From Alphaproteobacteria bacterium (lineage in GTDB: Bacteria; Pseudomonadota; Alphaproteobacteria; UBA6615), in assembly GCA_022449545.1 (NCBI GenBank), contig JAKUPN010000014.1, forward strand, positions 1-51,537: a stretch of DNA of 51,537 nucleotides. Direction: 5' to 3'. Positions 25,737 to 51,537 of this stretch are shown here, piece by piece. The translations under genes were made by a program, and so were the position numbers. Within the stretch, counting starts at the first letter, position 1, and each line of letters starts with the position of its first letter. The notes under the pieces were generated by a model that was given only the letters and a program-made list of their open reading frames with translations, searched no databases and was not told where the DNA came from.

Positions 25737-26291
25737 ATGACAAAATTCGATATACCAGAAAATTTAAAGAATATAAAATATTATAAGGCTCCTTCTGATT
25801 CACGGGTAGTTGCCATACATATAAATGGAGATTTTGATGAATTTGAACAGTTCCCTCCATTTATGGATACTCAAGAGGAACGAGATCATATCCTTAAAGC
25901 TTACAATGTTGATCCAGAATCTGAACGGAAAAATAAGGCACACCTAACAGCAGATGATTGGCCGTTGCAGGTGATAATGTTAAATCGAGACCCTGGAGGT
26001 ACCACGGCTGCTCATTATCACGTTCCGGATGAACCATTGCCGGATCATCCTACGAGACATCAGATTTTATTGTGTCAAAGAGGCAGTGCAAGAATTGGTA
26101 TTGTTACAACTGAAGGTGATTATCTAGGAGATGTTGTTTTAAAGCCTAATGATCTAGTCCTAATGCTAGAAGGGCATGAGGTTGAATTTCTTGAGAAGGG
26201 AACTCGTTTGGTTGAGATTAAGCAGGGACCCTTTCCTGTTACCGACGAAGCAGACAAGGTTGATCTGAAAATCAGGACTAATAAAAAGTGA
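25737..26291 (+). CDS. Cupin-domain protein
   Basis: The 184-residue protein has one recognisable cupin core: HYHVPDEPLPDHPTRHQILLCQRG with His93, His95 and a later His108-Gln109, then LKPNDLVLMLEGHEVEFL. The expected Glu ligand is not in its usual position. No obvious ribosome-binding site is seen, but it follows the nitroreductase by 32 bases and its stop overlaps the next start (GTGA, 26288-26291), so translation is coupled with the FAH-family gene. Function is unknown; a role with that hydrolase's substrate is likely. Confidence 0.75.
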   Translation: MTKFDIPENLKNIKYYKAPSDSRVVAIHINGDFDEFEQFPPFMDTQEERDHILKAYNVDPESERKNKAHLTADDWPLQVIMLNRDPGGTTAAHYHVPDEPLPDHPTRHQILLCQRGSARIGIVTTEGDYLGDVVLKPNDLVLMLEGHEVEFLEKGTRLVEIKQGPFPVTDEADKVDLKIRTNKK

Positions 26292-27346
26292 AATTAGCAA
26301 CATTTAGAGTGGAAACATCAATAGGTCCATTTGATCGATTTGGTGTTGTTATCCTTAATGGTGGGGTGAATGATACGATTATCAACTCTCGAGAAAATAA
26401 AGGGATTGTACTGGATGTAAACTTTATATTTGCGGCGATGGAGAATTCTAAAGGCATTGATAATTGCAATGAGAGGGCAAATATTTTCTGTCCCTCCAAT
26501 CTTGCTGCTTTTTCAAGTCTATATTTAAATGACTTTAGTTCTTTAGATAAATTAATTGATTGGATATCTAATAATAAAGACTCAAGAGGGCCCAGAGGGG
26601 AAACTCTTGCTTGGAGTTTAGAGGATGTATCACTTATGCCGCCGGTTTCAACTGTACCAGTCCTAAGGGATTTTGCCGCATTTGAGGATCATCTGGAAAA
26701 TACATTTGGCAAGATGGGGCTCAAAATACCTCCTGCTTGGTATGAGCAACCAACGGCTTTCAAAGGCAATCCGACCACGTTATTTGGCCATGATGTAGAA
26801 GTGCCTTGGCCGCGTTATACCGATAAACTTGATTATGAATTAGAGTTAGCAGTCATCATTGGCAAACCAGCCTTAAATATAGAGGAGAGCAAAGCATCAG
26901 AGCATATAATGGGCTACACCCTTCTTAATGATTTTTCGGCACGAGATACACAACGTGGTGAGATGAATGTTAGTACAGGTCCATATAAAGGCAAGGATTT
27001 TGCGTGGGGTCTTGGTCCGTGGGTTGTTACACCTGATGAGTTTGGTGATCCAGCAGATTTAAAAATGGCTGTTAGAATTGATGGAGAAGTATGGGCAAAT
27101 TCAACGCCTGGTCCCATGAAATGGACTTTTCCAGAAGCTATTTCATACACATCACAGGATGAACCATTACAAGTTGGAGAGGTGTTGGGTTCTGGAACTG
27201 TCAACAACGGTTGTGGTTTTGAAATTGATCGGTGGATAAAACCAGGATCTGTAGTCGAACTGGAAGCTGACCGCATAGGTGTTTTGAGGCATATAGTAGG
27301 TTCTCCTGAAGGAAAGCCAATAAGATGGAAGAGATCAGAAAAATAA
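26288..27346 (+). CDS. Fumarylacetoacetate hydrolase family protein
   Basis: The 352-residue protein has the FAH fold with its metal ligands: RDFAAFEDH (Asp128), YELELAVIIG (Glu184, Glu186) and LNDFSARD (Asp215), followed by KDFAWGLGPWVVTPDE and a late GEVLGSGTVNNGCG. Such enzymes hydrolyse the C-C bond of acylpyruvates or decarboxylate or hydrate related keto acids. The start GTG overlaps the cupin stop by 4 bases. A GST follows 30 bases later, a common neighbour when maleyl-type isomerisation precedes hydrolysis. The exact substrate is unknown. Confidence 0.92.
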   Translation: MKLATFRVETSIGPFDRFGVVILNGGVNDTIINSRENKGIVLDVNFIFAAMENSKGIDNCNERANIFCPSNLAAFSSLYLNDFSSLDKLIDWISNNKDSRGPRGETLAWSLEDVSLMPPVSTVPVLRDFAAFEDHLENTFGKMGLKIPPAWYEQPTAFKGNPTTLFGHDVEVPWPRYTDKLDYELELAVIIGKPALNIEESKASEHIMGYTLLNDFSARDTQRGEMNVSTGPYKGKDFAWGLGPWVVTPDEFGDPADLKMAVRIDGEVWANSTPGPMKWTFPEAISYTSQDEPLQVGEVLGSGTVNNGCGFEIDRWIKPGSVVELEADRIGVLRHIVGSPEGKPIRWKRSEK

Positions 27347-27376: not shown

Positions 27377-28084
27377 TTGATTAATGCGTATACGTGGCCA
27401 ACACCTAACGGACATAAAGTTCACATAATGCTTTATGAATGTGATCTTGAACATGAAATAGTACCTATTGACATCTTAAATGGAGATCAATTTAGTCCCG
27501 AATTTTTGTCTATAAGCCCGAATAACAGAATACCAGCGATTGTAGATAGTGATGGTCCTGATGGAAAAGAAATATCTATTTTTGAAACAGCAGCTATTTT
27601 ATGCTATTTAGCGAATAAATCTGGCAAATTTTTGCCTAATGTGAGCACTGAACCTGTCAATCACTTTAGGGTTATGGAATGGCTAATGTGGCAAATGGGC
27701 GGCATTGGGCCAATGATGGGTCAGTCCAACCATTTTCGTAGATATGCTCCTGAGACTATACCTTATGCCATAGATCGTTACTTTAATGAGGTAAAGAGAT
27801 TATTTGGCGTTGCTGACAAAAGGCTTTCTGATAATCGGTTTCTAGCGGGTGATGAATATTCAATAGCTGATATAGCCTGTTTTCCCTGGATGCGAGGCTA
27901 CAAGAGGCATGAAGTTCCGATAAGTGATTTTCCCAATATAGAAAGATGGTTTGATGAAATCGGTTCAAGGCCTGCTGTTCAAAAAGGCCTTGATGTACTA
28001 AATGACAAGAGACGCACAGAGGCTCCTAAGGGAAAAGAGTGGGAGATCATGTTTGGTAAAGATCAATTTAAACGTAGAGGTTAA
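27377..28084 (+). CDS. Glutathione S-transferase family protein (YfcG/nu-like)
   Basis: The 235-residue protein has the YfcG/YghU-type N-terminus TWPTPNGHKVHIMLYECDL and the glutathione-binding NNRIPAIVDSDGPDGKEISIFETAAIL, then a helical domain with DEYSIADIACFPWMRGYKRH. It may be a disulfide-bond oxidoreductase, as in YfcG, or a catabolic isomerase. The start is TTG at 27377 preceded by GAGGGAGAAG. Last gene of the seven-gene operon. Confidence 0.9.
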   Translation: MINAYTWPTPNGHKVHIMLYECDLEHEIVPIDILNGDQFSPEFLSISPNNRIPAIVDSDGPDGKEISIFETAAILCYLANKSGKFLPNVSTEPVNHFRVMEWLMWQMGGIGPMMGQSNHFRRYAPETIPYAIDRYFNEVKRLFGVADKRLSDNRFLAGDEYSIADIACFPWMRGYKRHEVPISDFPNIERWFDEIGSRPAVQKGLDVLNDKRRTEAPKGKEWEIMFGKDQFKRRG

Positions 28085-37239: not shown

Positions 37240-38010
37240 ATGTCAGATACCGACTTATCTAATAGGCCTGTTGCATTAGTTACTGGAGCTTCATATGGCT
37301 TAGGAGCTGAAATAGCTATTACTTTGGCTCGTGATGGATTTAATGTGGCGGTGACTGAGCTTAGTGCCAAAGACCTAGACCAAACTGTAACTGCAATTGA
37401 GGAGGAAGATGGAGCGAGAGCCGCTTCATTCGATCTTGATTTAAGAGAAACCGGAAGCCTAAAAGAAGCGGTAGAAGGCACGATAAGCGCTATGGGAAAG
37501 ATAGATGTCTTGGTTAATAATGCCGGATTACTTATTGCTAAGCCTGCTCTTGAGGTTACTCTTGATGATTGGGATCAAGTAATGTCCATAAATGTTAGGG
37601 GTTGTTACTTTATGTCTCAGTACGTAGCTCGTCACCTAATAGAGGAAGGAAGGTCTGGCAGTATAATAAATATAGCTTCAACTTTTACTGTAATAGGCAC
37701 GCCTAATGTATCTCCTTATGGTGTGTCAAAGGCTGCTGTGGGCGGAATTACAAGACATTTGGCTGTTGAATGGGCTAAATATGGCATACGTGTAAACGCT
37801 GTTGCTCCAGGTACAGTTGAGACTAAATTAAGGGCGAAAATATTAGCTGCTGATCCTGAACGCAGAGCAACCAATATGGCGAAAATTCCAATGGGGCGTT
37901 TTGGAACACCAGAAGATATGGCTGGTGCCGTATCGTATTTAGCTAGCCCTTCGTCATCTTATGTTAATGGTCATGTGCTCACTGTTGATGGAGGACTGAC
38001 TATTTCCTAA
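37240..38010 (+). CDS. Short-chain dehydrogenase/reductase (SDR)
   Basis: A 256-residue classical SDR with TGASYGLG at 15-22, NNAG at 93-96, Ser147, Tyr160-x3-Lys164 and the C-terminal YLASPSSSYVNGHVLTVDGG. It has GGGAG before the ATG. It is probably an NAD(P)-dependent alcohol or 3-hydroxyacyl dehydrogenase. It is followed by the molybdopterin-subunit gene after 58 bases, likely in one transcript. Third SDR of the window; the substrate is unknown. Confidence 0.92.
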   Translation: MSDTDLSNRPVALVTGASYGLGAEIAITLARDGFNVAVTELSAKDLDQTVTAIEEEDGARAASFDLDLRETGSLKEAVEGTISAMGKIDVLVNNAGLLIAKPALEVTLDDWDQVMSINVRGCYFMSQYVARHLIEEGRSGSIINIASTFTVIGTPNVSPYGVSKAAVGGITRHLAVEWAKYGIRVNAVAPGTVETKLRAKILAADPERRATNMAKIPMGRFGTPEDMAGAVSYLASPSSSYVNGHVLTVDGGLTIS

Positions 38011-38068
38011 AATTCTTTATGATTTTTTTATCATATGATCAATACTTCATATCTGGGAGTAAAAAGAA

Positions 38069-40384
38069 ATGCAATTTGGTATAGGACAGCCAGTCAAGAG
38101 AAAAGAAGACCCTAAATTTCTTAAGGGGTTAGGACGGTATGTATCAGACATGACATTACAAAGGCAGAGTTACGCTGTGTTCGTTTACTCCAATTATGCC
38201 CATGCTGATATCAAGTCTATAGACATCTCTGCGGCAATAAACCTTCCGGGAGTAATTTCTGTTTTAACTGGACGCGACTATGTTGGTGATGGAATGGGGC
38301 CTACTGGCGGAGTTATGCCTGAAGATATGGGAGGCCCCCCAGGGCATCGGACTTCTCATCTGCCGCTCGCCGTTGAAAGAGTTAGATTTGTTGGTGAAAG
38401 AGTGGCTGTCATAATAGCTGAAACTGAAGAACAGGCACGTGATGCTGTAGACCTTATTGCAATAGAGTACACCGAACTTCCAGCTGTGGTTATGGCGAGT
38501 GACGCAATAAAAAATAACGCGCCTCAAGTCTATAAAGAAGCTGATAATAATATAAGTTTTACACTACAATCAGGTGACTCTGCCAAAGTGGAATCGGCTT
38601 TTTCTAAAGCTGATCACATAACAAAATTATCTCTTCATAATAACCGTATTGATGCTGTGACAATGGAACCTAGAGGATGTTTGGGGGAATTTGACGCCAG
38701 CAATGGTCGTCTTAACTTTTATACGAGCACCCAAAATGTTCATGGGATAAGGCAAGGGCTTGCAAGCCAAAATCTGAACGTTCCTGAAAGCATGATACGT
38801 GTGATTGCTGGTGACGTTGGAGGCGGTTTTGGCATGAAAGGTCACGTTTATCCTGAGGAGGCGGTAGTTGCTTGGGCCTGTAAACGCGTGGGGAGGCCAG
38901 TTAAATGGATAGCGACACGCAGTGAATCCCTCATGGGAAATGATCATGGACGTGATCAATCCGTTGATGCGGAACTGGCGCTTGATGGGAATGGTAAATT
39001 TGTTGGGTTGCGATGGCGAGGGCTGCACAATGTGGGTGCTTATATTGAAGGAGCTGGGGCCATTCCTCCTCTCTTTGCGGTCAAATTAGCACCTACTGTA
39101 TATGATATTCCGGCTGTTGATGTGACGAATAAGGCAGTTTTTACTAATACTTCTCCAACAGTGCCATATAGAGGCGCAGGAAGACCTGAAGCTGTTTACA
39201 TTATGGAAAGATTAATTGACCTTGCTGCGCAGGAAACAGGTATAGATCGAGCAGAAATAAGAAAAATAAACTTTATAAAACCAGATGATATGCCTCACAG
39301 TACTGTTACAGGTTGGACTTATGATACAGGTGAATATTCTGCTGCTTTAGAAAAATGTCGAGATCTATCTGATTGGAATGGATATGAGAATCGAGTGATG
39401 CTTTCTAAAGAGAAAGGTCTGTATAGAGGCCGCGGCATTGTCTATTACGTAGATAACACAGGAATATTTAACGAAAGAATGGAGATACGGTTTGATCCGA
39501 GTGGTACGATAACGATTGTGTCTGGTGTCTTGTCTCATGGGCAGGGTCATGAAACCACTTTTGCTCAAATGGTGTCTGAATGGTTGCAGGTACCTTTCGA
39601 GCATATTCGACTTACTCAAGCAGATACTGACGAAGTTCCTATAGGACGAGGTACATACGCCTCGCGTTCAATGATGGTTGGGGGCAGTGCTCTTCAAGCC
39701 GCAGCAAATGATGTTATAGAGAAAGGCAAGAAATTTGCTGCACACTTTATGGAGGCTAATGTCACTGACATTGAGTTTTCTGATGGAAACTTCGTTATAT
39801 CAGGTACTGATAAAGAGATGTCTCTCACTGAAGTCGCTAAAATGTCGTTTATGCCGGTTCATCTGCCAAGTGAAGAGCTAGGAGTTGGTCTACAGGGCGT
39901 AGGAGCGTTTTCTGCTGAAGTACCGAGTTTTCCAAATGGTTGTCATATAGCTGAAGTAGAAGTCGATTCAGAAACAGGTGAAGTAATAATTGATAGGTAT
40001 AGTGTTGTTGATGATATAGGTACGGTCATCAATCCATTGTTAGCTCGCGCTCAAATTCACGGAGGCGTAGTTCAAGGGGTAGGGCAGGCTTTAATGGAAG
40101 ACCTTTATTATGACCGAACAAGTGGACAATTACTTTCTGGATCATTCATGGATTATGGGATGCCACGAGCAGATGTGATGCCAGACATAAAAGTAGAGTT
40201 TAATCCAGTTCGGAGTAAATCTAACCCTATTGGGGCGAAAGGTGTTGGAGAAGGTGGTACTGTGGCAAGCACTCCTACGATAGTTAACGCAATACTTGAT
40301 GCGCTCAAGTCATTAGGCGTCACCAGAATAGATACTCCTGTAACATCCAAAAGAATTTGGGAGGCGATTAATTCGGTCGCTTAA
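38069..40384 (+). CDS. Molybdenum hydroxylase large (molybdopterin) subunit
   Basis: The 771-residue protein is full length for a CoxL/XdhB-type subunit. Seen are GIGQPVKRKEDPKFLKGLGRY at the start, the molybdopterin segment GDVGGGFGMKGHVYPEE, PYRGAGRPEAVY (366-377) and the conserved active-site Glu728 in GVGEGGT. The active-site loop is not the Cys-containing AYRCSFR of CO dehydrogenase, so this is a hydroxylase of another substrate, such as an aromatic heterocycle or aldehyde. It has no adjacent small subunits; a pair lacking this subunit sits at 20993-22357. It overlaps the convergent purU by 4 bases. Confidence 0.93.
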   Translation: MQFGIGQPVKRKEDPKFLKGLGRYVSDMTLQRQSYAVFVYSNYAHADIKSIDISAAINLPGVISVLTGRDYVGDGMGPTGGVMPEDMGGPPGHRTSHLPLAVERVRFVGERVAVIIAETEEQARDAVDLIAIEYTELPAVVMASDAIKNNAPQVYKEADNNISFTLQSGDSAKVESAFSKADHITKLSLHNNRIDAVTMEPRGCLGEFDASNGRLNFYTSTQNVHGIRQGLASQNLNVPESMIRVIAGDVGGGFGMKGHVYPEEAVVAWACKRVGRPVKWIATRSESLMGNDHGRDQSVDAELALDGNGKFVGLRWRGLHNVGAYIEGAGAIPPLFAVKLAPTVYDIPAVDVTNKAVFTNTSPTVPYRGAGRPEAVYIMERLIDLAAQETGIDRAEIRKINFIKPDDMPHSTVTGWTYDTGEYSAALEKCRDLSDWNGYENRVMLSKEKGLYRGRGIVYYVDNTGIFNERMEIRFDPSGTITIVSGVLSHGQGHETTFAQMVSEWLQVPFEHIRLTQADTDEVPIGRGTYASRSMMVGGSALQAAANDVIEKGKKFAAHFMEANVTDIEFSDGNFVISGTDKEMSLTEVAKMSFMPVHLPSEELGVGLQGVGAFSAEVPSFPNGCHIAEVEVDSETGEVIIDRYSVVDDIGTVINPLLARAQIHGGVVQGVGQALMEDLYYDRTSGQLLSGSFMDYGMPRADVMPDIKVEFNPVRSKSNPIGAKGVGEGGTVASTPTIVNAILDALKSLGVTRIDTPVTSKRIWEAINSVA

Positions 40385-41253
40385 TAAAACACGACCGTTC
40401 GATCTTCGTGGGTGATGACACGATGTTGAATGTGATAACGCACGGCTCTAGCTAAAACTAAACTTTCTAAATCCCTTCCCACGCGCTCTAACTCTTGAGG
40501 ATGTTGTGCATGGGTAACTCGTGTAGTTTCTTGATCGATAATCGGACCCTCATCGAGATTAGGAGTAACATAATGCGCCGTTGCCCCAATGAGTTTTACC
40601 CCTCGAATGTAGGCCTGATCATAGGGCTTTGATCCTTTAAATCCTGGTAAGAAGGAATGGTGAATGTTTATAACCCGACCTTTGAGAATTTCACAGGTTT
40701 CGGGAGTTAGTATTTGCATGTATCTTGCTAGAACTGTTAACTCGGTGTTTGTATCTTCGATGATTTTTAAAACTTCATTTTCTTGTTGAGTTTTTGTTTC
40801 AGGTGTAATTGGTAAGTAATGATAGGGTATATCATAGAATACAGCACGCTGTTCTTGGTCTAGATGATTTGAAATGATGCCGACGACATCAACTTCTAAA
40901 GCCCCGATACTTACTCTATAGAGAAGATCATTTAAGCAATGTCCCGGCTTAGAAACCATAATTAATACTCGTGGTTTGTGGCCTTGATTATAAAGTTTCC
41001 AGTTCATAGAGAACCTTTGTGCAATTGGGTTAAACGAACTTTCTATATTTTCTACAGAAGGAGTTGTTTCGCCTGCACCAAATACTGTACGCATAAAAAA
41101 TTGCCCAGATATTTCGTCGTCGAACTGTGCAGATTCTAGAATATTGCATCCCTGCTGTGCTAAAAAGCTAGCAACTTCTGCAACGATACCCATTTGATCA
41201 GGACAAGACAGATTTAAAATATAACGCCTATCAAACTCTTGACGTTTTGGCAT
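40381..41253 (-). CDS. purU: Formyltetrahydrofolate deformylase
   Basis: The protein has 290 residues from the ATG at 41253 (GAGAGG upstream; a TTG at 41265 is less likely). The N-terminal ACT domain covers about residues 10-85 (NLSCPDQMGIVAEVASFLAQQG). The formyltransferase-fold part has the PurU hallmark SKPGHCLNDLL and the catalytic region NIHHSFLPGFKG with His198, then EGPIIDQE. It releases formate from 10-formyl-THF to balance the one-carbon pool. It is convergent with the large molybdenum subunit and divergent from the hydrolase at 41382. PurU may also dispose of one-carbon units from demethylation reactions. Confidence 0.95.
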   Translation of the reverse strand: MPKRQEFDRRYILNLSCPDQMGIVAEVASFLAQQGCNILESAQFDDEISGQFFMRTVFGAGETTPSVENIESSFNPIAQRFSMNWKLYNQGHKPRVLIMVSKPGHCLNDLLYRVSIGALEVDVVGIISNHLDQEQRAVFYDIPYHYLPITPETKTQQENEVLKIIEDTNTELTVLARYMQILTPETCEILKGRVINIHHSFLPGFKGSKPYDQAYIRGVKLIGATAHYVTPNLDEGPIIDQETTRVTHAQHPQELERVGRDLESLVLARAVRYHIQHRVITHEDRTVVFY

Positions 41254-41381
41254 GATTCCTCTCAAAAAATTTGTTTTACAATATTTACAATATCTATATT
41301 TAAGTATGTTTGAATATAATTTATATTCTTCTTTTAAAATGTATTAGACGATTAATTAGGATTTATAAAAGGATATAGGAC

Positions 41382-42590
41382 ATGGCTAAACCTCAATTGC
41401 GACAAGAACAGGGATGGATCTTTGATAACTTTCTTATGCTTTCAGAGAACGAAGATATTCTTCATCCAGGTATTATGGGAACGCGTCTCATTAGAGGGTT
41501 TATGCTTGAAGATTTGCATGCAGTCTACAAAAAGGTTACAGGAAGAAGATCTTTTCCGAAGGCCTGGTTCAAACGGGCAAGTTCATTAGAATCTGCTGCC
41601 AAAGCCGCTGAAGATAGTGGGCAGCTTGTAACCGCTAGAAAATTATATCACAGAGCTTCACTATGTTTTGGGCGCGCGCAACACCTCATACCTGTACATG
41701 GAAATGAGGAAATGAATAAGGCGTATAAATTATTATACGAATGTTATGATAAAGTCATTGATCTATCCAATGGGGGTATGATCAAAAATTCATTAGAGTT
41801 TTCACCAGGCAAAAAGGTTCATTGTGTTTTTCATAAAGCTGCTGGTGAAGGGCCAAAGCCAACAATCCTTATTATTCCGGGCATGGATGCTATTAAGGAA
41901 GACGTTGTTAACCCTTTTTCAAACGATTATCTCGAACGTGGTATTAACGTTTGTGCGCTGGATGGTCCGGGTCAAGGTGAATGTAACTATAACGCCGTTT
42001 GGCTAAGCCAAGATAACTATCAGATAGCTGCTTCAAGGGTCATTGATATGCTTGTAGAACGTGAAGATGTAGATCCCAATAAAATTGGTGTCATGGGAAT
42101 GAGCATGGGGTCTCGGTGGGGCGTTCAAGTGGGTGCTCATGATAAACGTGTAAAAGCTGTATGTGGTCAGATGGCTAATGTTGGATCATTTGACATAATT
42201 TTCGAACAAGCTCAGCCTAACTTTAAGCGAATCTTTATGTATATGACTGGTTACACTAACGAAGATGAATTTGATAAGTTTATACTTAAGATGGATTACC
42301 TACCAGATGTTGCTAAGCGATTGAGCGTGCCTCACTTGCTTGTTGCTGGTGATATGGATGAATTATGTACGCCAGCGGATATTAAGACCTTTAGAGAAAG
42401 TCTGGCGGGGCCAACAGAATTATGGCTCTATGAGGGTGTCTTTCACCCTATGGGGGAAGTAGCTGGAGAAATATACCCAGCAATGTCCGATTGGCTTTTA
42501 AAAACTTTAAATAACGGCAGGTCCAAAGACTATGAAAAAACAGTTTATGTTGAAGAAGGTAGAAATTTAGGTGACTACGATCATGGGTAA
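41382..42590 (+). CDS. Alpha/beta hydrolase with N-terminal helical domain (paralogue)
   Basis: The 402-residue protein parallels the one at 9738 in length and order: helical N-terminal domain to about 130, ILIIPGMDAIKED, ALDGPGQGE, nucleophile GMSMGS (Ser241), Asp326 (AGDMDELC) and His355 (EGVFHP). It resembles 2,6-dihydroxypseudooxynicotine hydrolase / FrsA-like enzymes that cut C-C or ester bonds. AAAAGGA precedes the ATG. It is divergent from purU and convergent with the lyase gene at 42626. Different substrate from its paralogue is likely, since the C-termini differ strongly. Confidence 0.86.
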   Translation: MAKPQLRQEQGWIFDNFLMLSENEDILHPGIMGTRLIRGFMLEDLHAVYKKVTGRRSFPKAWFKRASSLESAAKAAEDSGQLVTARKLYHRASLCFGRAQHLIPVHGNEEMNKAYKLLYECYDKVIDLSNGGMIKNSLEFSPGKKVHCVFHKAAGEGPKPTILIIPGMDAIKEDVVNPFSNDYLERGINVCALDGPGQGECNYNAVWLSQDNYQIAASRVIDMLVEREDVDPNKIGVMGMSMGSRWGVQVGAHDKRVKAVCGQMANVGSFDIIFEQAQPNFKRIFMYMTGYTNEDEFDKFILKMDYLPDVAKRLSVPHLLVAGDMDELCTPADIKTFRESLAGPTELWLYEGVFHPMGEVAGEIYPAMSDWLLKTLNNGRSKDYEKTVYVEEGRNLGDYDHG

Positions 42591-42625
42591 AATTATTCTT
42601 TTGACTGAGTGTTCTATATTAATAT

Positions 42626-43624
42626 TTACTCAGCCGCATTCTTAGCAAGTGCTAATCTAGCTTTTTCAGGTAGTCCTGTCGCTTCTATTTCTTGTATGAA
42701 TGCAGATTTAGATTCCTCGTCCATTTCTAGTACCGGTGGGCGCACCGGCCCTCCGTCCATCAAGATGCATTCCTGCCAGTATTTCATTTCTGACATGGGC
42801 ATTCTTCCTTTGCGCCAGTAACCTTGTATCCATTTTGAGTGTAGTTCTCTAATGGGATTTAGTGATGCTGCAAGTTTTGTTGCCTTTTCAATTTCCCCAT
42901 TCAGTGCGTACTTTGTATACTCATTAATAGGCAAGTGACCTGGCACCTGATACAGATGAGGATTGTAGTTGATTAGCCATTGGTGGCCAAGTTGAGTCAT
43001 ATTGTGCAACCATGGTGCTTCATCAGCTACAGAAATAACTACTTCTTCTCCCACGCTGGCTTCTAACGATATGGTAGCTGCTGGTGCGGGATCAGCCTGT
43101 TTTATTGCAACTATATTTGGCAAAGATATAAGCCGTTTAGCGAGACTTGGATTAATTGGGTGACAATTGGAGGGAACATTAAATAGTACAATACCTATTT
43201 CAGTTCGCTCAGATATGTATTCATAAAAGGAGTAAACTGAATCATCGTTACCTGCTGCGACATAGGGTGTTAAGATAATTACGAAATCAAAACCTATGTC
43301 CCAAGCATGGTTGGCTAGCATTGTAGCATCTTTTACTGATTGATGATGACATCCTGCTATTTGTGGTATTCGACCATTCGCCGCATCGATCATAATTTCA
43401 TGAGCGTGTTTTCTTTCGTCATTCGGCATTGACCAAAACTCAGCGATGTTACCAGAACAATAATGCCCATCGATTTCAAGCTTTGTTATGATATGATCCA
43501 TATTACGGCTGTTTGCTCTATCGTCGAATTCATCTGCCTCGTTCCAACAATAGGGCATTGCAGTCCAAACTCCACGTAACATCTCCTTGGCGGCTTCTTT
43601 GGATTCATATTTGTTATATTTCAT
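42626..43624 (-). CDS. Dihydrodipicolinate-synthase-fold lyase, atypical active site
   Basis: The 332-residue protein is a class I aldolase of the DapA/NanA family. The Schiff-base lysine is Lys175 (NIVAIKQADP). Upstream, where DapA has Tyr133 in YNVP, this protein has Phe148 (VLFNVPSN), and the usual GTTGE motif reads SGNIAE. So the normal proton-relay tyrosine and the paired threonines are missing, and lysine biosynthesis is unlikely. It should act as an aldolase, hydratase or decarboxylase of a keto acid. AAAGGAGA stands before the ATG. It follows a cupin gene on the same strand by 50 bases. Confidence 0.85.
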   Translation of the reverse strand: MKYNKYESKEAAKEMLRGVWTAMPYCWNEADEFDDRANSRNMDHIITKLEIDGHYCSGNIAEFWSMPNDERKHAHEIMIDAANGRIPQIAGCHHQSVKDATMLANHAWDIGFDFVIILTPYVAAGNDDSVYSFYEYISERTEIGIVLFNVPSNCHPINPSLAKRLISLPNIVAIKQADPAPAATISLEASVGEEVVISVADEAPWLHNMTQLGHQWLINYNPHLYQVPGHLPINEYTKYALNGEIEKATKLAASLNPIRELHSKWIQGYWRKGRMPMSEMKYWQECILMDGGPVRPPVLEMDEESKSAFIQEIEATGLPEKARLALAKNAAE

Positions 43625-43674
43625 GCGGTTTCTCCTTTATAGAAACAACAATACTTGTGCCGTTATATAAATCA

Positions 43675-44073
43675 TTAGTTTGATTTTATATTTGCCATTG
43701 CTTTTTGTAGTTCCTCGGCAGAGTCAGCCTTATTATAGTCCTGACTATGTCTCCCGTCACCAGCAGGACTTTTTACAGACCAAAATAAGCAATGACCGTC
43801 TACAGGTAAAATCCCGTGTCTAATATTTCTAGGGATATGTACAACATCGCCGGATTCTATAGTAGTAATATCGTCGCCAAGGACCATGCGCAATTTTCCT
43901 TCTAAAAGGTATATAAACTGTTCCTCGTTGGGATGAAAATGAGGAGGAGGTGCAATTCCTTCTTCGTAATGAACAAGAGCTGCTTTCATGAACTCTCCTA
44001 CAAAACTCTTCATTAAGGCTGGTGCAGTATCATCAGGCTTGAAGTCGATATCAGAGAGCTTGTGATGGGGCAT
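43675..44073 (-). CDS. Cupin protein
   Basis: The 132-residue protein is a compact cupin with full metal set: PPPHFHPNEEQFIYLLEG (His45, His47, Glu51) and VVHIPRNIRHGI (His86). Such small cupins act as dioxygenases, isomerases or lyase helpers. It heads a two-gene minus-strand operon with the atypical DapA-fold lyase. Across a 262-base divergent region lies a second DapA-fold gene, also followed by a cupin, so the lyase-cupin pairing occurs twice. Confidence 0.85.
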   Translation of the reverse strand: MPHHKLSDIDFKPDDTAPALMKSFVGEFMKAALVHYEEGIAPPPHFHPNEEQFIYLLEGKLRMVLGDDITTIESGDVVHIPRNIRHGILPVDGHCLFWSVKSPAGDGRHSQDYNKADSAEELQKAMANIKSN

Positions 44074-44275
44074 ATTTATATCCTCGTAGATTATACAAAG
44101 TACATTTACTCAAATTACTCGAAAAATAGGGTATTTAAGAAAATGTGATTATAATGGTTAGTTTAAACACTTTTACTTTAAAAAAAACTCATTAATTCAT
44201 ATTTGATAAACTTAAATTTGTTTTTTGAATAATTGTAGAATATTATGAGTATGTTTATTGATTAGTAAAAATCGT

Positions 44276-44300
44276 ATCAATTGTATTAGATATAATTGAT
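44276..44300 (+). promoter_or_regulatory. Palindrome over the promoter region of the lyase gene at 44336
   Basis: Bases 44276-44286 and 44290-44300 are inverted 11-base arms (outer ATCAATT / AATTGAT) with one mismatch and a 3-base centre. A TATAAT sits inside the right arm at 44291-44296, 40 bases before the ATG, so a regulator here would cover the -10. A further ATTGAT half-site is at 44257-44262. No clear -35 is present. The surroundings are very AT-rich. Confidence 0.38.
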
Positions 44301-44335
44301 TATATTCAAATAATGAACTTCGGGACATTTAAATA

Positions 44336-45295
44336 ATGGCTAGATTTCGTGATTATATTCCTCAAGGAGTGATTCCAGCAGCTTTATTAGCATTTGATGA
44401 TGACTTCGAGATAAATGAATCAGAAACTCGACGTCATTTTCTGTATCTATCTAACGTAGAGGGTGTGACTGCAATAACAGTAAACGGTCACTCTTCCGAA
44501 GTACATGCATGCAGTCATGATGAACAATCATTAATACTCCGCCTTGCCAGTGAAACCGTTGGTGATTATACCCCGCTTATAAACGGCATATATGCAGATG
44601 GAAGTATTGAAGCTGCGCGACTGGCTAAAATGGCTGATAACCTAGGTGCGTCTGCGCTTCTTTGTTTTCCTCCTAATTCAATGAGGATGGGAGGAATACA
44701 GCACCGCCCAGAAATGGCATTGACGCATTTTAAACGGATTGCTGATGCGACGGATCTTCCATTAATTGTTTTTCAATATGGAGATGAATTAGCATACTCA
44801 TTGGATACACTGATTGAGCTTGTAGAAGAAGTTCCAAGTATAGCTGCTGTTAAAGATTGGTCAGTACCACAAAAACACGAAACCCACATAAGAGTATTAC
44901 AATCATTGCCGCGTCCAGTAAATGTTTTGTCAACAAATTCAGCCTGGTTATTGTCTTCATTGGTTATGGGGGCAAATGGTTTGTTGTCTGGTGCGGGATC
45001 AGTAATCGCAGAGCTCCAAGTTAAATTATTTAGAGCTGTGCAATCAAACGATTTAGAAACAGCAAAAGAACTAGCTGATTCAATTTGGCATACTTCAGGT
45101 GTATTTTACAAAGATCCATTTGGGGATATGCATAATCGTATGAAAGAAGCGCTAGTTCTGCTAGGACGACAGAATAAGGCAGTGGTTCGACCACCTTTGG
45201 TAAAACTTAAGCAGACCGAAGTAGCCATGATTGCAGAAGCGCTGGATGCTGCCGGGATTTCATCAGATGAATCCTCGAGAGCTGCTGCTGAATAA
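44336..45295 (+). CDS. Dihydrodipicolinate-synthase-fold lyase, atypical active site
   Basis: The 319-residue protein is a DapA/NanA-fold class I aldolase with Schiff-base Lys173 (IAAVKDWSVP). The position of the DapA Tyr133 is Phe146 (LIVFQYGDE) and the GTTGE motif reads NGHSSE (residues 50-55). It is therefore not a normal dihydrodipicolinate synthase, and it is distant from the lyase at 42626. It ends SSRAAAE. It is divergent from the cupin-lyase operon and followed, after 160 bases, by another cupin. The reaction is probably aldol cleavage or dehydration of a sugar-acid or keto acid. Confidence 0.86.
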   Translation: MARFRDYIPQGVIPAALLAFDDDFEINESETRRHFLYLSNVEGVTAITVNGHSSEVHACSHDEQSLILRLASETVGDYTPLINGIYADGSIEAARLAKMADNLGASALLCFPPNSMRMGGIQHRPEMALTHFKRIADATDLPLIVFQYGDELAYSLDTLIELVEEVPSIAAVKDWSVPQKHETHIRVLQSLPRPVNVLSTNSAWLLSSLVMGANGLLSGAGSVIAELQVKLFRAVQSNDLETAKELADSIWHTSGVFYKDPFGDMHNRMKEALVLLGRQNKAVVRPPLVKLKQTEVAMIAEALDAAGISSDESSRAAAE

Positions 45296-45455
45296 AAAAT
45301 TAGGGCAAGTTCTGAGGGTTAGGTGCTGAATAACTAATTATTTCATTATGGTAGTTTTATTTTTTTGAGTTATTTATTCTACATTTATTGTTAATGTTTA
45401 TTCGATATAGATATTTATTTTAGAATTAAATTTTATGAATTAAGAGGTAAGAATA

Positions 45456-45785
45456 ATGACTACTGCTGCTGCAAAATCCTACACGACATTATCAGATGAT
45501 CGAACCGCTCCTGAACATATAGTTCTGCACGAAGATGAACATTCGAGAATGATTTATTACGTTATTCAGCCTGGTGAACAGACTGGATGGCACACACATG
45601 AATTAGATTACACTGTAATACGTGTCTCAAAAGGAACACTTACTTCTCATTTTTCTGATGGCACTAGCACAGATTTTAATTATGAGCCCGGAACAACATC
45701 TTCATATAAAGCTCCGGTTGAGCATAATGCTATTAATACTGGTGATACACCAATCATAGGATACGAAATAGAGTTTAAAAACTAA
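45456..45785 (+). CDS. Cupin protein
   Basis: The 109-residue cupin has QPGEQTGWHTHELDYTVI (His46, His48, then Asp51 where Glu is usual), a GTLTSHFSDG turn and VEHNAINTG with a final ligand His. AGAGG stands before the ATG. Its stop overlaps the convergent peptidase stop by 4 bases. It may form a transcription unit with the upstream lyase. The specific role is unknown. Confidence 0.82.
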   Translation: MTTAAAKSYTTLSDDRTAPEHIVLHEDEHSRMIYYVIQPGEQTGWHTHELDYTVIRVSKGTLTSHFSDGTSTDFNYEPGTTSSYKAPVEHNAINTGDTPIIGYEIEFKN

Positions 45786-47176: not shown

Positions 47177-47241
47177 ATTTATATCTTACTGTGAATATCT
47201 ATATAATACCAATTTGGTTATTACATTTGAGGTCTGAAGGA

Positions 47242-48375
47242 ATGAAAATATTAGTTATTGGTGGAGGTCCATCAGGTCTTTATTTTTCTTACCTTATAAA
47301 AAGGGCACACCCAGGCATAGAAATAAAAGTTGTAGAACAGAATCCGAATAATGCCACTTTTGGTTTTGGCGTAGTGTTTTCTGATAAAGCGTTAGAATTT
47401 TTACATGCTGGTGATGAACAAACATATAATTATTTAATGCCCCATATGAAATATTGGTCAGATTTAAAAATTGTTCATAAAGATGAGCATATGGCAATTG
47501 ATGGTAATGGTTTTGCTGCAATTGGCCGCTTGCAGCTGCTAAAGTTACTTCAGTCTCTTTGTTTAGAAATAGGAGTTTTATTTGACTTTAATACAGAGTT
47601 TAAAGATATAAACAGTAATTATGATTATGATTATATTATAGCTGCTGACGGGGCAAATTCTTCTATTAGAAAAAGTTTCCAAGAGGAATTTAAGTCCTCT
47701 GAGACCATTCTTAAAAACCCATTTATTTGGTTCGGTACAACAAAGTTATTTGATTGTCTGAGTCTTACATTTCGATTAAACAATGATGGCGTTTTTTGTG
47801 CTCACCATTATCCTTATAATTCTGAAATGAGCACATTTATAGTTGAGACAGATCCCGAAACGTATAAAAAAGCTGGTTTTTCGGTTCAAGATGAGCATTC
47901 TATTAAGTCTTATTGTGAGCAAGTATTTGTTACTGATTTGGAGGGGCATGAGTTATTAACCAATAAATCAGTTTGGCGTTGGTTCCCTCAAATATGGAAT
48001 GAGCGGTGGAGTTATGAAAATATTGTTTTAATAGGGGACGCTTTACACACAGCACATTTTTCAATTGGTTCTGGAACACGTCTTGCAATGGAAGATGCTA
48101 TTTGCCTTTTTGAAGCTATAAATGAACATCAGACAGATAAAAAATCTGCATTAAGCCAGTATGAAGAGAAACGTCGTCCAAAGTTAGAAAAACTAATAGA
48201 TGCTTCTATTGCAAGCGCTCTATGGTATGAGAGAATGGGTGAACTTGTTAAAAGTCTTCAGCCTTACGAGTTTGCAAAAAGCTATATGACAAGGACCGGC
48301 AGGGTAAGTGATAAAAAATTAAAGTTGATAGCTCCAAACTTTATGGAGAAATATTCTAATTCGAATACTAGTTAG
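47242..48375 (+). CDS. FAD-dependent aryl-CoA monooxygenase (salicylyl-CoA 5-hydroxylase-like)
   Basis: The protein has 377 residues from the ATG at 47242, supported by AAGGA; an in-frame start at 47191 is rejected. It has GGGPSGLYFS at the FAD site, TFGFGVVFSD, FAAIGRLQLL, WFGTTKLFD and GDALHTAHFSIGSGT (from Gly265). These stretches match salicylyl-CoA 5-hydroxylase and the N-terminal half of 2-aminobenzoyl-CoA monooxygenase. The old-yellow-enzyme half found in bifunctional relatives is absent, which favours simple hydroxylation of an aryl-CoA. The next gene, 11 bases later, is an aryl-CoA ligase. Whether the ring substrate is salicylate, anthranilate or another is not resolved. Confidence 0.88.
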   Translation: MKILVIGGGPSGLYFSYLIKRAHPGIEIKVVEQNPNNATFGFGVVFSDKALEFLHAGDEQTYNYLMPHMKYWSDLKIVHKDEHMAIDGNGFAAIGRLQLLKLLQSLCLEIGVLFDFNTEFKDINSNYDYDYIIAADGANSSIRKSFQEEFKSSETILKNPFIWFGTTKLFDCLSLTFRLNNDGVFCAHHYPYNSEMSTFIVETDPETYKKAGFSVQDEHSIKSYCEQVFVTDLEGHELLTNKSVWRWFPQIWNERWSYENIVLIGDALHTAHFSIGSGTRLAMEDAICLFEAINEHQTDKKSALSQYEEKRRPKLEKLIDASIASALWYERMGELVKSLQPYEFAKSYMTRTGRVSDKKLKLIAPNFMEKYSNSNTS

Positions 48376-48386
48376 GAAACTTAATT

Positions 48387-50000
48387 ATGGAAGTTAATGA
48401 TATAACAGATCGTGTCCCAAGGTCTTTGAAAATATCTAAAGACATAAACTTTGATCTTCCTGAAAAGTATAACGCCAGTGAAATTTTATTTGATAACCTA
48501 GAAAAACGACCAGATAAAATCGCTATTTATTCTGATAATGGTAATGCTACCTATAGAGAACTATGTGAAACTTCGAATAAAGTTGGCAATGCCTTGACCG
48601 GTATGGGGCTTAAACCATTTTCACGAATATTAATGGTTTTGGATGATACGGCAATTTATCCTTCAGCAATTTTCGGAGCAATGAGGGCAGGGTTTGTCCC
48701 GGTTTTGATAAACACGCTGTCTCCTCCAGAGATGGTTAATTATTATCTTAAAGATAGTCGATCAACCGTAGTTGTTATTAGTGAACCCTTCTCTCATTTA
48801 ATTACTGAAGAGACAGTATCTGGAACTCATTTAAAAACTTTAATAGTTGATGGAACAATAAAGGTAGACATTCCCGAAATCTCTTCGATTATCTGGAATG
48901 ACTGGATTAGCGGACATTCATCGTCTTTGGTGGCAGCAAATACAAGCAAAGATGATATGGCCTTTTGGATGTATAGTTCTGGTAGCACAGGGCGTCCGAA
49001 GGGAATCGTACATTTACATCATGACATGGCTTATACCAATGAATCTTATGCTAAAGATGTTCTATGCTTGACAGAAGATGACATATGTTATTCACCACCG
49101 AAGATATTCTTTGCTTACGGTTTTGGTAATTCTATAACTTTTCCATTTTCTGTAGGGGCCAGTGTTGTCTTAAGTACTGAGAGGCCCCAACCGGAAATAG
49201 TTTATAATCATGTTGAAAAGTATAAACCTACAGTGTTCTTTGGTTTACCAACTCTTTATAGTTCACTATTAAGTAATAGGGTTAAGAACGAAACAGCTTT
49301 TAACAGCGTTAGATTGTGTATTTCAGCTGCAGAAACTCTTTCCAGAGATTTATTTTCTGCTTGGAATTCTAGGTTTGATTTAGACATAATCGAAGGTTTA
49401 GGTTCTACAGAGGTATTGCATATTTATATTTCAAATAAATCAGAGGATTTTAAGGTAGGGTCCGCTGGAAAACCAGTTAAGGGTTATGAGGTTGAATTAA
49501 GAAATGATGAAGGTACAATTGTAGAAGGGGACGAACCCGGTGTTTTATGGGTTAGAGGTGACTCCAATGCGCCCTGTTATTGGAACAAACTGGATAAAAC
49601 CCTCGAAACTATGAAGGAGGGATGGATATATACTGGAGATAGATTTGAAGTAGATGATGAAGGATTTTATTATTTTCGAGGGCGTGCAGATGACCTAATT
49701 AAGATCAGTGGACAATGGGTATATCCACTTGAAATTGAACTTTGCTTGAAAAATCATCCCTCTATAAAAGAATGTGCTGTTTTAGGCCTCACCCTGGCTG
49801 ATGAACGAATGACTACAAAAGCTTTTGTCGTGCTCTCAGATGGGTATGAGGGGAACCAAATCATGACAACTGAGTTAAAGGACTATGCTCAGAAAAATTT
49901 GTTACCACATAAATACGCACGAGAGATAAGTTACATGAAGTCTCTTCCTAAAACTGGATCGGGCAAAATTGATAGACAAAAGCTTAAAGAAGATATCTAA
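48387..50000 (+). CDS. Benzoate-CoA ligase family protein
   Basis: The 537-residue adenylate-forming enzyme has the P-loop YSSGSTGRPKG (196-206), the PPKIFFAYGFGN segment, ISAAETLS, GLGSTEVLHIYISN, YTGDRF and catalytic Lys527 (TGSGKID). The DDTAIYPSAIFGAMRAGFVPVLINTL stretch is typical of benzoate- and 2-aminobenzoate-CoA ligases rather than acetyl-CoA synthetase. It should make the CoA thioester used by the adjoining monooxygenase. AGGA stands before the ATG. A ThDP enzyme gene follows after 91 bases. Confidence 0.91.
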   Translation: MEVNDITDRVPRSLKISKDINFDLPEKYNASEILFDNLEKRPDKIAIYSDNGNATYRELCETSNKVGNALTGMGLKPFSRILMVLDDTAIYPSAIFGAMRAGFVPVLINTLSPPEMVNYYLKDSRSTVVVISEPFSHLITEETVSGTHLKTLIVDGTIKVDIPEISSIIWNDWISGHSSSLVAANTSKDDMAFWMYSSGSTGRPKGIVHLHHDMAYTNESYAKDVLCLTEDDICYSPPKIFFAYGFGNSITFPFSVGASVVLSTERPQPEIVYNHVEKYKPTVFFGLPTLYSSLLSNRVKNETAFNSVRLCISAAETLSRDLFSAWNSRFDLDIIEGLGSTEVLHIYISNKSEDFKVGSAGKPVKGYEVELRNDEGTIVEGDEPGVLWVRGDSNAPCYWNKLDKTLETMKEGWIYTGDRFEVDDEGFYYFRGRADDLIKISGQWVYPLEIELCLKNHPSIKECAVLGLTLADERMTTKAFVVLSDGYEGNQIMTTELKDYAQKNLLPHKYAREISYMKSLPKTGSGKIDRQKLKEDI

Positions 50001-50091
50001 CCACAGAAACTAAAATTTTTAATTATTTTAAACAAAATCGATTATTCGTAAAATAAACGGATATAAATAATTCTTTTGAGGAGTAATAACG

Positions 50092-51537
50092 ATGACGATT
50101 ATGTCTGGTGCGCAAGTTATGGCAGATATGCTTAAGGGGTATGGTGTTACACATGTATTTATGGTTCCCGCTGTTTTGCGTCGCACTATGGTTGAATTGG
50201 AATTACGTACAGACATAAAACGGTTACATGTTCACTCAGAGAAGACAGCAGCCTACATGGCTGATGGTTATGCAAGGGCAACAGGAAGACCAGGCATTTG
50301 CATGGCACAGGTCATTGGAGCACTAAACTTGGCAGCAGGACTTCGAGATGCTCATTTGGCTCATTCACCAGTTATTGCTATGACTGGTGGCAGAGACCCT
50401 AGCACGAAGTTTCGCGGTGTTTATCAGGAGGTTGATGACGTACCAGCATTTGAACCAGTTACTAAGTTCAATGCTACTATCGATAGTGTTGATAGATTTC
50501 CGGATATGATTAGACAAGCATTTAGAGTGGCCGTATCTGGTACGCCAGGTCCTGTTCATTTGCAGTTTCAAGGTAATGAAGGGCAAATTGATGCAGAAGA
50601 GGCTGAAATGGAGGCTATTTGTGAGATGATGTTTAGTCAGGTTCCACCATTTCGACCTGAGCCATCTGAGACAGATCTTAGATCTGCGTTAGATCAATTA
50701 GAGTCCGCTGAACGGCCAGTGATTATAGCAGGTGGTGGCGTGAGAGCATCGGGTGCATCATCGGCGCTATTGGCTTTGGCTGAACGATTAAATATTCCAA
50801 TAGCTACTTCACTCAATGGTAAGGATTCTATTCCAGGCAATCATCCTCTTTCTGTTGGAGTGGTAGGCACTTACTCACGTGAGAGTGCTAACAGAGTGGT
50901 AAATGAAGCAGATCTAGTTGCTTTCATTGGCACTACCGCTGGAGGAATGACAACACATTTTTGGCAAGTTCCTCCCATTGGTATAGCTGCTATTCAGATA
51001 GATCTTGAACCTGAGACTATTGGAAGAAATTATCCTTTGAAAGCTTCGGTTCAAGCGGATGCCAAAGTTTCTTTGGAAAGAATGTTAGCCCTGACGAACG
51101 CTGAATCCGCTTCTAGCCGATCTAAGTGGATCGAGAGGGCATCCTTGATTGTAAACGAATGGAGAGGAAAGTTTCATGATTTATTAAACTCTGACTCTTT
51201 ACCAATAAGACCTGAACGTATCTGTAATGACTTATCAAAGCACTTACCAAATGATGCTATTGTTGTTGCGGATACTGGTCACGGAGGAATGTGGATGGGT
51301 GGGATGTATGATCTGCGTTCACCAAATCAAAGTTACATGAGGAGCGCAGGTCATCTGGGTTGGGCTTTTCCTGCCGCTCTAGGTGCTAAATGTGGCGCGC
51401 CAGACAGACCTGTTTTTTGTTTCACTGGTGATGCCGGATTTTGGTATCACATCGCTGAAGTTGAAACAGCGGCTCGTTGGGGTATAAAAACCGTAACCCT
51501 TGTAAATAATAATAGTTCTGGAAATCAGTCTAAGAGA
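50092..51537 (+). CDS. Thiamine-diphosphate-dependent enzyme, acetolactate-synthase type (C-terminus outside window)
   Basis: The gene starts at an ATG (50092) with GAGGAG upstream and runs open for 482 codons to the right edge. The N-terminal PYR domain has the cofactor-activating glutamate Glu50 (VHSEKTAAYMADGYARATG); a central domain follows (VIIAGGGVRASG near 210-220); the PP domain has the magnesium/ThDP motif GDAGF (446-450) with VNNN later. Such enzymes cleave or form C-C bonds next to a carbonyl (decarboxylases, carboligases, lyases). It is probably the third gene of the aryl-CoA operon, but its substrate and last part cannot be seen. Confidence 0.9.
   Translation, partial: MTIMSGAQVMADMLKGYGVTHVFMVPAVLRRTMVELELRTDIKRLHVHSEKTAAYMADGYARATGRPGICMAQVIGALNLAAGLRDAHLAHSPVIAMTGGRDPSTKFRGVYQEVDDVPAFEPVTKFNATIDSVDRFPDMIRQAFRVAVSGTPGPVHLQFQGNEGQIDAEEAEMEAICEMMFSQVPPFRPEPSETDLRSALDQLESAERPVIIAGGGVRASGASSALLALAERLNIPIATSLNGKDSIPGNHPLSVGVVGTYSRESANRVVNEADLVAFIGTTAGGMTTHFWQVPPIGIAAIQIDLEPETIGRNYPLKASVQADAKVSLERMLALTNAESASSRSKWIERASLIVNEWRGKFHDLLNSDSLPIRPERICNDLSKHLPNDAIVVADTGHGGMWMGGMYDLRSPNQSYMRSAGHLGWAFPAALGAKCGAPDRPVFCFTGDAGFWYHIAEVETAARWGIKTVTLVNNNSSGNQSKR

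Follow-up and report, generated by a model that had tools for sequence, protein, structure and literature searches.

A hydroxylase and CoA ligase pair at an alphaproteobacterial contig end as a probable diverged CehG/CehH-like module with unlinked ring-cleavage genes

A CoA-mediated catabolism of salicylate was reportedly described in Rhizobium sp. X9 (Zhou et al. 2021, doi 10.1111/mmi.14771, in the reference list of PMC11335346), and the gene names cehG, cehH and cehI are said to be those of that strain. For Streptomyces sp. WA46, an excerpt of PMC4600096 gives the SdgC scheme as CoA activation, 5-hydroxylation of salicylyl-CoA, hydrolysis and gentisate cleavage, and an excerpt of PMC13215587 describes a CoA-mediated gentisate pathway in Massilia. 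Here we analyse a stretch of 51,537 nucleotides (the window), which is contig C6 of an alphaproteobacterial genome (assembly GCA_022449545.1; G000 in our numbering, where G, C and L denote genomes, contigs and loci). The genome comprises 2.25 Mb in 47 contigs with a completeness of 95.94%, and the contig end coincides with the last base of the window. At this end, genes for a stand-alone aryl-CoA hydroxylase and an aryl-CoA ligase adjoin each other (47242-50000, Table 1). We consider that this pair has probably diverged within the CehG/CehH (SdgC-like) kind of module and that its ring-cleavage genes are located elsewhere. This reading rests on what the genes encode, where their products fall in trees, how they are linked and which other genes the genome has; from these we infer the substrate and the regiochemistry.

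The pair resembles CehG/CehH/CehI in that a stand-alone flavin hydroxylase is followed, in the same order, by a ligase of the benzoate-CoA ligase type, and the window hydroxylase shares 45% identity with two proteins annotated cehH, the window ligase 47.5–48.6% with two annotated cehG. Unlike those genes, the window pair has no linked thioesterase, IclR, gentisate dioxygenase, MaiA or FAH gene and is accompanied instead by a divergent gene for an M20-family amidohydrolase, and its hydroxylase lies outside the tree clade that contains cehH. With the SdgC scheme the likeness lies in the proposed reaction order; the SdgC-related actinobacterial clusters differ in a hydroxylase frame of 517–534 aa and in other ligase types. 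The N-terminal monooxygenase half of ACMR (2-aminobenzoyl-CoA monooxygenase/reductase, NF006101) is homologous to the window hydroxylase and about 40% identical; the window enzyme, however, lacks the C-terminal half related to old yellow enzyme (OYE) and falls in a separate clade, and the ligases of ACMR-type clusters are only 28–34% identical to the window ligase.

The hydroxylase and ligase pair

The module at the right end is compact. The M20 gene diverges from the hydroxylase gene, and the ligase gene and then a gene for a thiamine diphosphate (ThDP) enzyme follow on the hydroxylase strand, the ligase starting 11 nt past the hydroxylase stop codon. For the hydroxylase, the mechanical open reading frame opens at GTG 47191 (394 aa), whereas ATG 47242, preceded by GAAGGA, gives 377 aa, the same length as the orthologue in the same-genus genome G002.

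Table 1 Features at the right end of the window and related cupins scoring below the gentisate dioxygenase cut-off.
Feature	Position	Strand	Evidence
M20-family metallo-amidohydrolase, 464 aa	45782..47176	-	NF005478/PRK07079 638.2 bits (cut-off 330); Pfam PF01546
Divergent intergenic region, 65 bp	47177..47241	.	Sequence; promoter-like match
Stand-alone FAD-dependent aryl-CoA hydroxylase, 377 aa, CehH-like	47242..48375	+	NF006101 N-terminal half; PF01494; tree
Aryl-CoA ligase, 537 aa, benzoate-CoA ligase family	48387..50000	+	TIGR02262; ligase tree with benzoate-type outgroups
ThDP enzyme, acetolactate-synthase type, cut by contig end	50092..51537	+	PF02776, PF00205, PF02775
Sub-cut-off cupins	L067:9016-9867, L068:6770-7864, L069:7340-8434, L070:12331-13437		TIGR02272 226-273 bits

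The hydroxylase matches NF006101, the model for the bifunctional salicylyl-CoA 5-hydroxylase/oxidoreductase, with 386.7 bits (below the cut-off of 1078). Since the match is confined to positions 1-382 of 768, the OYE half is absent, as the preliminary description of this DNA had already proposed. The translation contains GGGPSGL, ADGANSSIR and GDALHTAHFSIG, which we take to be flavin-monooxygenase motifs. It is the sole strong copy in its own genome, where three matches were obtained (E=2.8e-263, then 1.6e-4 and 2.1e-4).

The violacein biosynthesis enzyme VioD belongs to the same sequence family, and the nearest solved structures by sequence are VioD proteins (8gqr, E=4.2e-54; 3c4a, E=1.4e-49), which is the argument for regarding the hydroxylase as a VioD-like biosynthetic tailoring enzyme instead of a catabolic one. 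We consider this extremely unlikely, as the VioD model NF053547 yields 237.9 bits, far under its cut-off of 620 and lower than the score of the salicylyl-CoA hydroxylase half, the gene is linked to a benzoate-CoA-type ligase, and biosynthetic genes were not recognised among the neighbours scanned. VioD is not known to act on a CoA ester.

Among 60 relatives searched with the hydroxylase, 36 gave a match at E <= 0.001, the strong matches falling mostly into two frame sizes (stand-alone, about 370–450 aa; fused, about 750–850 aa). At E <= 1e-60 a match was present in 80 of 385 sampled genomes of the class, probably Alphaproteobacteria, the plasmid search returned 192 matches among 72,556 records, and a scan of a contig collection gave a single match, distant and partial. 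From these matches we selected 57 rows for a hydroxylase tree, omitting G010, whose gene is split across two contigs. The stand-alone enzymes form a 42-row clade (100/100), and the fused and longer enzymes, 15 rows, are separate. The window clade comprises the window, G002, G001, G008 and G014 (99/98). Next to it stands a 30-row clade (100/99) with two cehH-annotated proteins (salicylyl-CoA hydroxylase in their records), other plasmid enzymes of gentisate-type clusters and a second clade from the window's own family. The branches of L057 and L058 are very long and their placement is unsure, and the window and two same-genus rows differ in composition. A stand-alone hydroxylase is thus not unusual, as the 42-row clade includes the cehH-annotated proteins. 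A tree against SdgC and ACMR had been proposed earlier; the tree built here covers the ACMR side, and the fused ACMR-type enzymes do fall apart from the window clade.

The second clade of stand-alone hydroxylases from the same family (L034, L037, L039, L040, L041, L043, L044) is without a window-type ligase. A gene of the beta-keto acid cleavage enzyme family (BKACE) is adjacent in 7 of 10 rows, and a 4HBT-type thioesterase occurs in 5 of 10; the BKACE enzyme could supply the aroyl-CoA without a ligase.

The ligase passes the benzoate-CoA ligase family model TIGR02262 (523.9 bits, cut-off 375.25), in agreement with the benzoate-type assignment made earlier. A ligase tree of 28 rows was built with 2v7b (a benzoate-CoA ligase of solved structure), a Thermus protein annotated as benzoate-CoA ligase family and the ligases of fused-enzyme clusters as outgroups; L200, L072 and L203 were excluded as too distant, and the L187 ligase was missed in the picking of reading frames. 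In this tree, where 2v7b and the Haladaptatus row form long branches, the window ligases are separate from all three outgroups and join other hydroxylase-linked ligases in a clade of 21 rows (100/99); each of the 21 has a stand-alone hydroxylase as its neighbour, except for a single one that is fused to such an enzyme. That fusion is a natural one on a plasmid of Rhizobium leguminosarum strain Vaf10, annotated as a single 910-aa protein with the same order of parts (L073:7998-10727), and it supports the view that hydroxylase and ligase act in sequence. The window ligase also retains motifs of the hydroxylase-linked cluster ligases, such as PKIFFAYGFGN, SAAE and GLGSTEVLHIY, which presumably line the acid pocket. 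Homology and conserved linkage together give good support to the predicted CoA-dependent ring hydroxylation by this pair, which had been anticipated in the preliminary description.

In the proposed route, the ligase would use ATP to convert an ortho-hydroxylated benzoate, most likely salicylate, into its CoA thioester, and the flavin hydroxylase would add a hydroxyl group at C5, para to the existing one, to give gentisyl-CoA. An unlinked hotdog thioesterase, gentisate 1,2-dioxygenase, isomerase and FAH hydrolase would then complete the route to central metabolism.

The same chemistry might act on another activated benzoate, namely 2-aminobenzoyl-CoA, 3-hydroxybenzoyl-CoA, or 4-hydroxybenzoyl-CoA with an NIH shift, and its product might enter gentisate or another ring cleavage. 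Two features would fit such a change: the window hydroxylases do not group with the cehH proteins, and a conserved partner of their own, the M20 gene, accompanies them. Conversion of 4-hydroxybenzoate to gentisate occurs in some Bacillus and in Haloarcula according to work cited in an excerpt of PMC10815724. On the other side, the ligase groups with the hydroxylase-linked cluster ligases and keeps their motifs, and the fused 2-aminobenzoyl-CoA-type enzymes and their ligases form separate groups, in a hydroxylase tree that contained no sequence of a 4-hydroxybenzoyl-CoA 1-hydroxylase (PhgB type). We regard another substrate as possible, though on balance unlikely, and retain the CehG/CehH-like module as the probable explanation.

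Ring-cleavage genes in the genome and in related clusters

We compared the gene context of the 57 hydroxylase rows in stretches of mostly 9–21 kb, with four shorter ones of about 4 kb. A window-type ligase is found in all five window-clade rows, each time adjacent to the hydroxylase, and in 16 of 30 cehH-clade rows. A gentisate-dioxygenase-like gene lies within the stretch in 9 of the 30 cehH-clade rows, in the row of the Rhizorhabdus wittichii RW1 plasmid enzyme, in 3 of the 15 fused or longer ones, in none of the five window-clade rows and in none of six others. Eight of those 13 genes were scanned with TIGR02272, and L072, L184, L186 and L188 pass (461–628 bits against 442.1); seven of the nine cehH-clade genes are among the scanned ones, and four pass. 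The named plasmid clusters of hydroxylase and ligase, one of which carries the names cehG/H/I, bear a gentisate-dioxygenase-like cupin, FAH, maiA and mostly a thioesterase, the exceptions being one without an annotated thioesterase and one without cupin or maiA within the stretch. The window's local layout departs from these known clusters twice: ring-cleavage genes are absent and the M20 gene is present. A Variovorax plasmid cluster (L072:1141-10747) combines gtdA, FAH, thioesterase, BKACE, 3-hydroxyacyl-CoA dehydrogenase, acyl-CoA dehydrogenase, crotonase, hydroxylase and AMP ligase genes, a combination that hints at entry into the same hydroxylase from a hydroxyphenylpropanoid side-chain route.

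The preliminary description had no gentisate dioxygenase in view, and a whole-genome search agrees: both matches in this genome lie on contig C12, and the window's contig has none. Two small cupins in the window find no support as the ring-cleavage enzyme, being 132 and 109 aa long where the gentisate dioxygenase on C12 has 347 aa. The window genes of the FAH and GST (glutathione S-transferase) type (26288-27346, 27377-28084) were rejected as fumarylpyruvate hydrolase and isomerase, since they gave only weak matches (31% and 27%) and their best NCBIfam models are different ones, below cut-off.

The gentisate 1,2-dioxygenase at C12:116581-117624 (L115:8582-9625) passes TIGR02272 with 522.2 bits. 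About 3 kb from it lies a 4HBT hotdog thioesterase (L115:12505-12936) that shares 35% identity with its counterpart in the Agrobacterium cluster. A MaiA-type isomerase (52% identical) is encoded at C3:23941-24576, and there are 11 FAH-family matches, at most 46% identical. We regard the C12, C3 and FAH genes as candidates for the remaining steps, and their service to this pair as plausible. With the cupin of the Agrobacterium cluster as the query, some match was found in 20 of 20 relatives (own genome included), long and at E <= 1e-50 in 17 of them; G014 and G019 gave weak matches and G023 a partial one. The C12 cluster (L115:8582-12936 = G000:C12:116581-120935) holds the dioxygenase, a single PaaA-like di-iron protein, a short-chain dehydrogenase/reductase (SDR), a 2Fe-2S/FAD reductase and the thioesterase; CoA-transferases adjoin it, and the gene order is similar in G001 and G002. 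It may represent a further, oxygenase-based CoA route that leads to gentisate, and gentisate may thus be the end point of several upper pathways.

Several results weigh against a CehG/CehH-like module that feeds these genes. In the hydroxylase tree the window clade falls outside the 30-row cehH-containing clade and sits beside the RW1 enzyme with weak support (82/82), so its substrate may have changed. Within the stretches compared, none of the five window-clade rows has a linked gene for a thioesterase, a gentisate dioxygenase or IclR. The cupins of RW1 and the cehH type (L067, L068, L069, L070; Table 1) stay under the TIGR02272 cut-off, so that the gentisate label of those clusters rests partly on record annotation, the RW1 record naming its cupin gene gentisate 1,2-dioxygenase, and on similarity; these cupins may form a separate subgroup of gentisate-type dioxygenases. 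The FAH matches in the window's genome are unspecific, the dedicated type (55–57%) occurring in G003 and G007 alone of 8 genomes, and the MaiA-type gene may serve tyrosine breakdown. G014 has the pair, yet its dioxygenase-like match is weak (E=1.8e-6; 510 contigs, 92% complete). Because the C12 dioxygenase stands with a PaaA-like oxygenase and CoA-transferases and is also present in relatives without this pair, it may serve another upper pathway.

A possibly new route after hydroxylation had been suggested. With a gentisate dioxygenase and candidates for the other steps encoded elsewhere in the genome, such a route is not called for, and a candidate new ring-degradation pathway is thereby removed. 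Relatives of both proteins of the pair are already known, and the locus appears to belong to an ordinary breakdown route with scattered genes; a view limited to one contig can make a scattered, ordinary pathway seem incomplete. A standard gentisate set just downstream, named earlier as what would refute the new route, was not recognised there: glutaminyl-tRNA synthetase (GlnRS) and other genes follow, and the dioxygenase and the candidates lie elsewhere.

The ThDP gene and the sequence past the contig end

The acetolactate-synthase-type gene noted after the ligase does carry three TPP-enzyme Pfam domains and runs off the contig after 482 aa. G002 is continuous across the region; when it was mapped on the window's own genome, C6 stopped at query base 1529 and C44 began at 1531, and the missing 3' end lies at G000:C44:3-227. 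After it, C44 encodes GlnRS, an FMN reductase, a two-domain protein of the vicinal oxygen chelate (VOC) type, a flavin reductase, an M23 peptidase and nitrile hydratase chains. A blastp comparison with the reference set (E <= 1e-6) recognised no thioesterase, gentisate dioxygenase, FAH or MaiA gene over the initial 20 kb of this contig. The two-domain VOC protein (L063:2660-5861) resembles extradiol dioxygenases below the family cut-offs and adjoins the flavin reductases and nitrile hydratase chains.

The preliminary description noted the ThDP enzyme as foreign to the salicylate scheme, and one could let it act after the hydroxylase in a non-gentisate pathway. In the window's genus (G000, G001, G002) its gene comes after the ligase on the same strand, with a gap of 91 bp in the window, about 75 bp in G002 and about 250 bp in G001, and in G008 and G010 it is found further along that strand, about 10 kb and 7 kb beyond the ligase, with genes of a tripartite ATP-independent periplasmic (TRAP) transporter between. 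The shared neighbourhood is the best argument for a link to the pair, and a loss of intervening genes could account for the close spacing within the genus.

The distribution, however, speaks against it. ThDP orthologues of at least 76% identity occur in 11 of 15 genomes searched, and G005, G007, G011, G015 and G021 have one (76–78%) although their sole strong stand-alone hydroxylase belongs to the other clade and has no window-type ligase alongside. Outside the genus, TRAP-transporter genes lie directly upstream of the ThDP gene in 6 of 7 relatives read, called by Pfam in G010 (DctP/Q/M), G008 (DctQ/M) and G011 (DctM), by 35–37% similarity to part of a TRAP permease in G007 and G021, and by gene lengths equal to those of G008 in G014; G005 is the exception, with an undecided flank. 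The ThDP gene has 44.5% G+C, against 34.3–37.1% for the M20, hydroxylase and ligase genes, and is 95% conserved to G002 and 83–84% to G001/G008, where the other three reach 86–88% and 60–68%. All four genes are under purifying selection against G002 (Nei-Gojobori dN/dS 0.089 for the hydroxylase, 0.090 for the ligase, 0.081 for M20 and 0.042 for ThDP). Based on distribution, TRAP linkage, slower evolution and higher G+C, we rejected the ThDP enzyme as a pathway member. Its action in the route is very unlikely, and its gene probably belongs to a separate transcription unit.

The divergent M20 gene and neighbouring genes

The M20 gene distinguishes the window clade: each of the five rows carries it at 66–74 bp from the hydroxylase match, and none of the 52 other rows does. 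G010, outside the 57-row table, has it as well, so that a divergent M20 gene at about 65–75 bp is found in 6 of 6 genomes. The gap of 65 bp probably holds promoters for both directions; a promoter-like TTTATA-18-TATAAT at 47178-47207 agrees at 10 of 12 positions, but such matches are not above background (18 against a shuffled mean of 22.2) and, like terminator-like ones, do not count as evidence here.

In the probable CehG/CehH-like module, the M20 enzyme may release the acid from an amide or amino-acid conjugate, or it may process peptides. An assignment as a dedicated aroyl-amino-acid hydrolase is not favoured, the best solved relatives being a carboxypeptidase and dipeptidases, and two named plasmid relatives of M20 adjoin ABC transporter genes, one of them annotated as peptide transport. 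We put forward only tentatively, as a rather doubtful extension, that M20 works together with the ligase and the hydroxylase as a module that handles amide-conjugated aromatic acids, or that another aromatic acid is the substrate. M20 would then split an N-aroyl amino acid (e.g. salicyloyl-aspartate), the ligase would re-activate the acid and the hydroxylase would lead to gentisate. The clade-specific link gives a concrete, testable idea on the origin of the aromatic acid.

Further upstream, the conserved neighbours at 37240-45785 comprise an SDR, a molybdenum hydroxylase large subunit, a PurU-type deformylase and a FrsA-like hydrolase, together with two proteins of the dihydrodipicolinate synthase (DHDPS) family and the two small cupins. 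The DHDPS-family genes (42626-43624, 44336-45295) were rejected as naphthalene-type hydratase-aldolases that would yield salicylaldehyde: in the best 60 of 115 and 118 structure matches there was no such entry, and these matches are DHDPS, N-acetylneuraminate lyase and related aldolases. In G008, G014 and G010 a protein of about 734–742 aa is encoded close to the ligase (L032:1277-3481, L033:739-2955, L050:2961-5189), and the sole signal in the two scanned (L032, L050) is a sub-threshold 4Fe-4S match.

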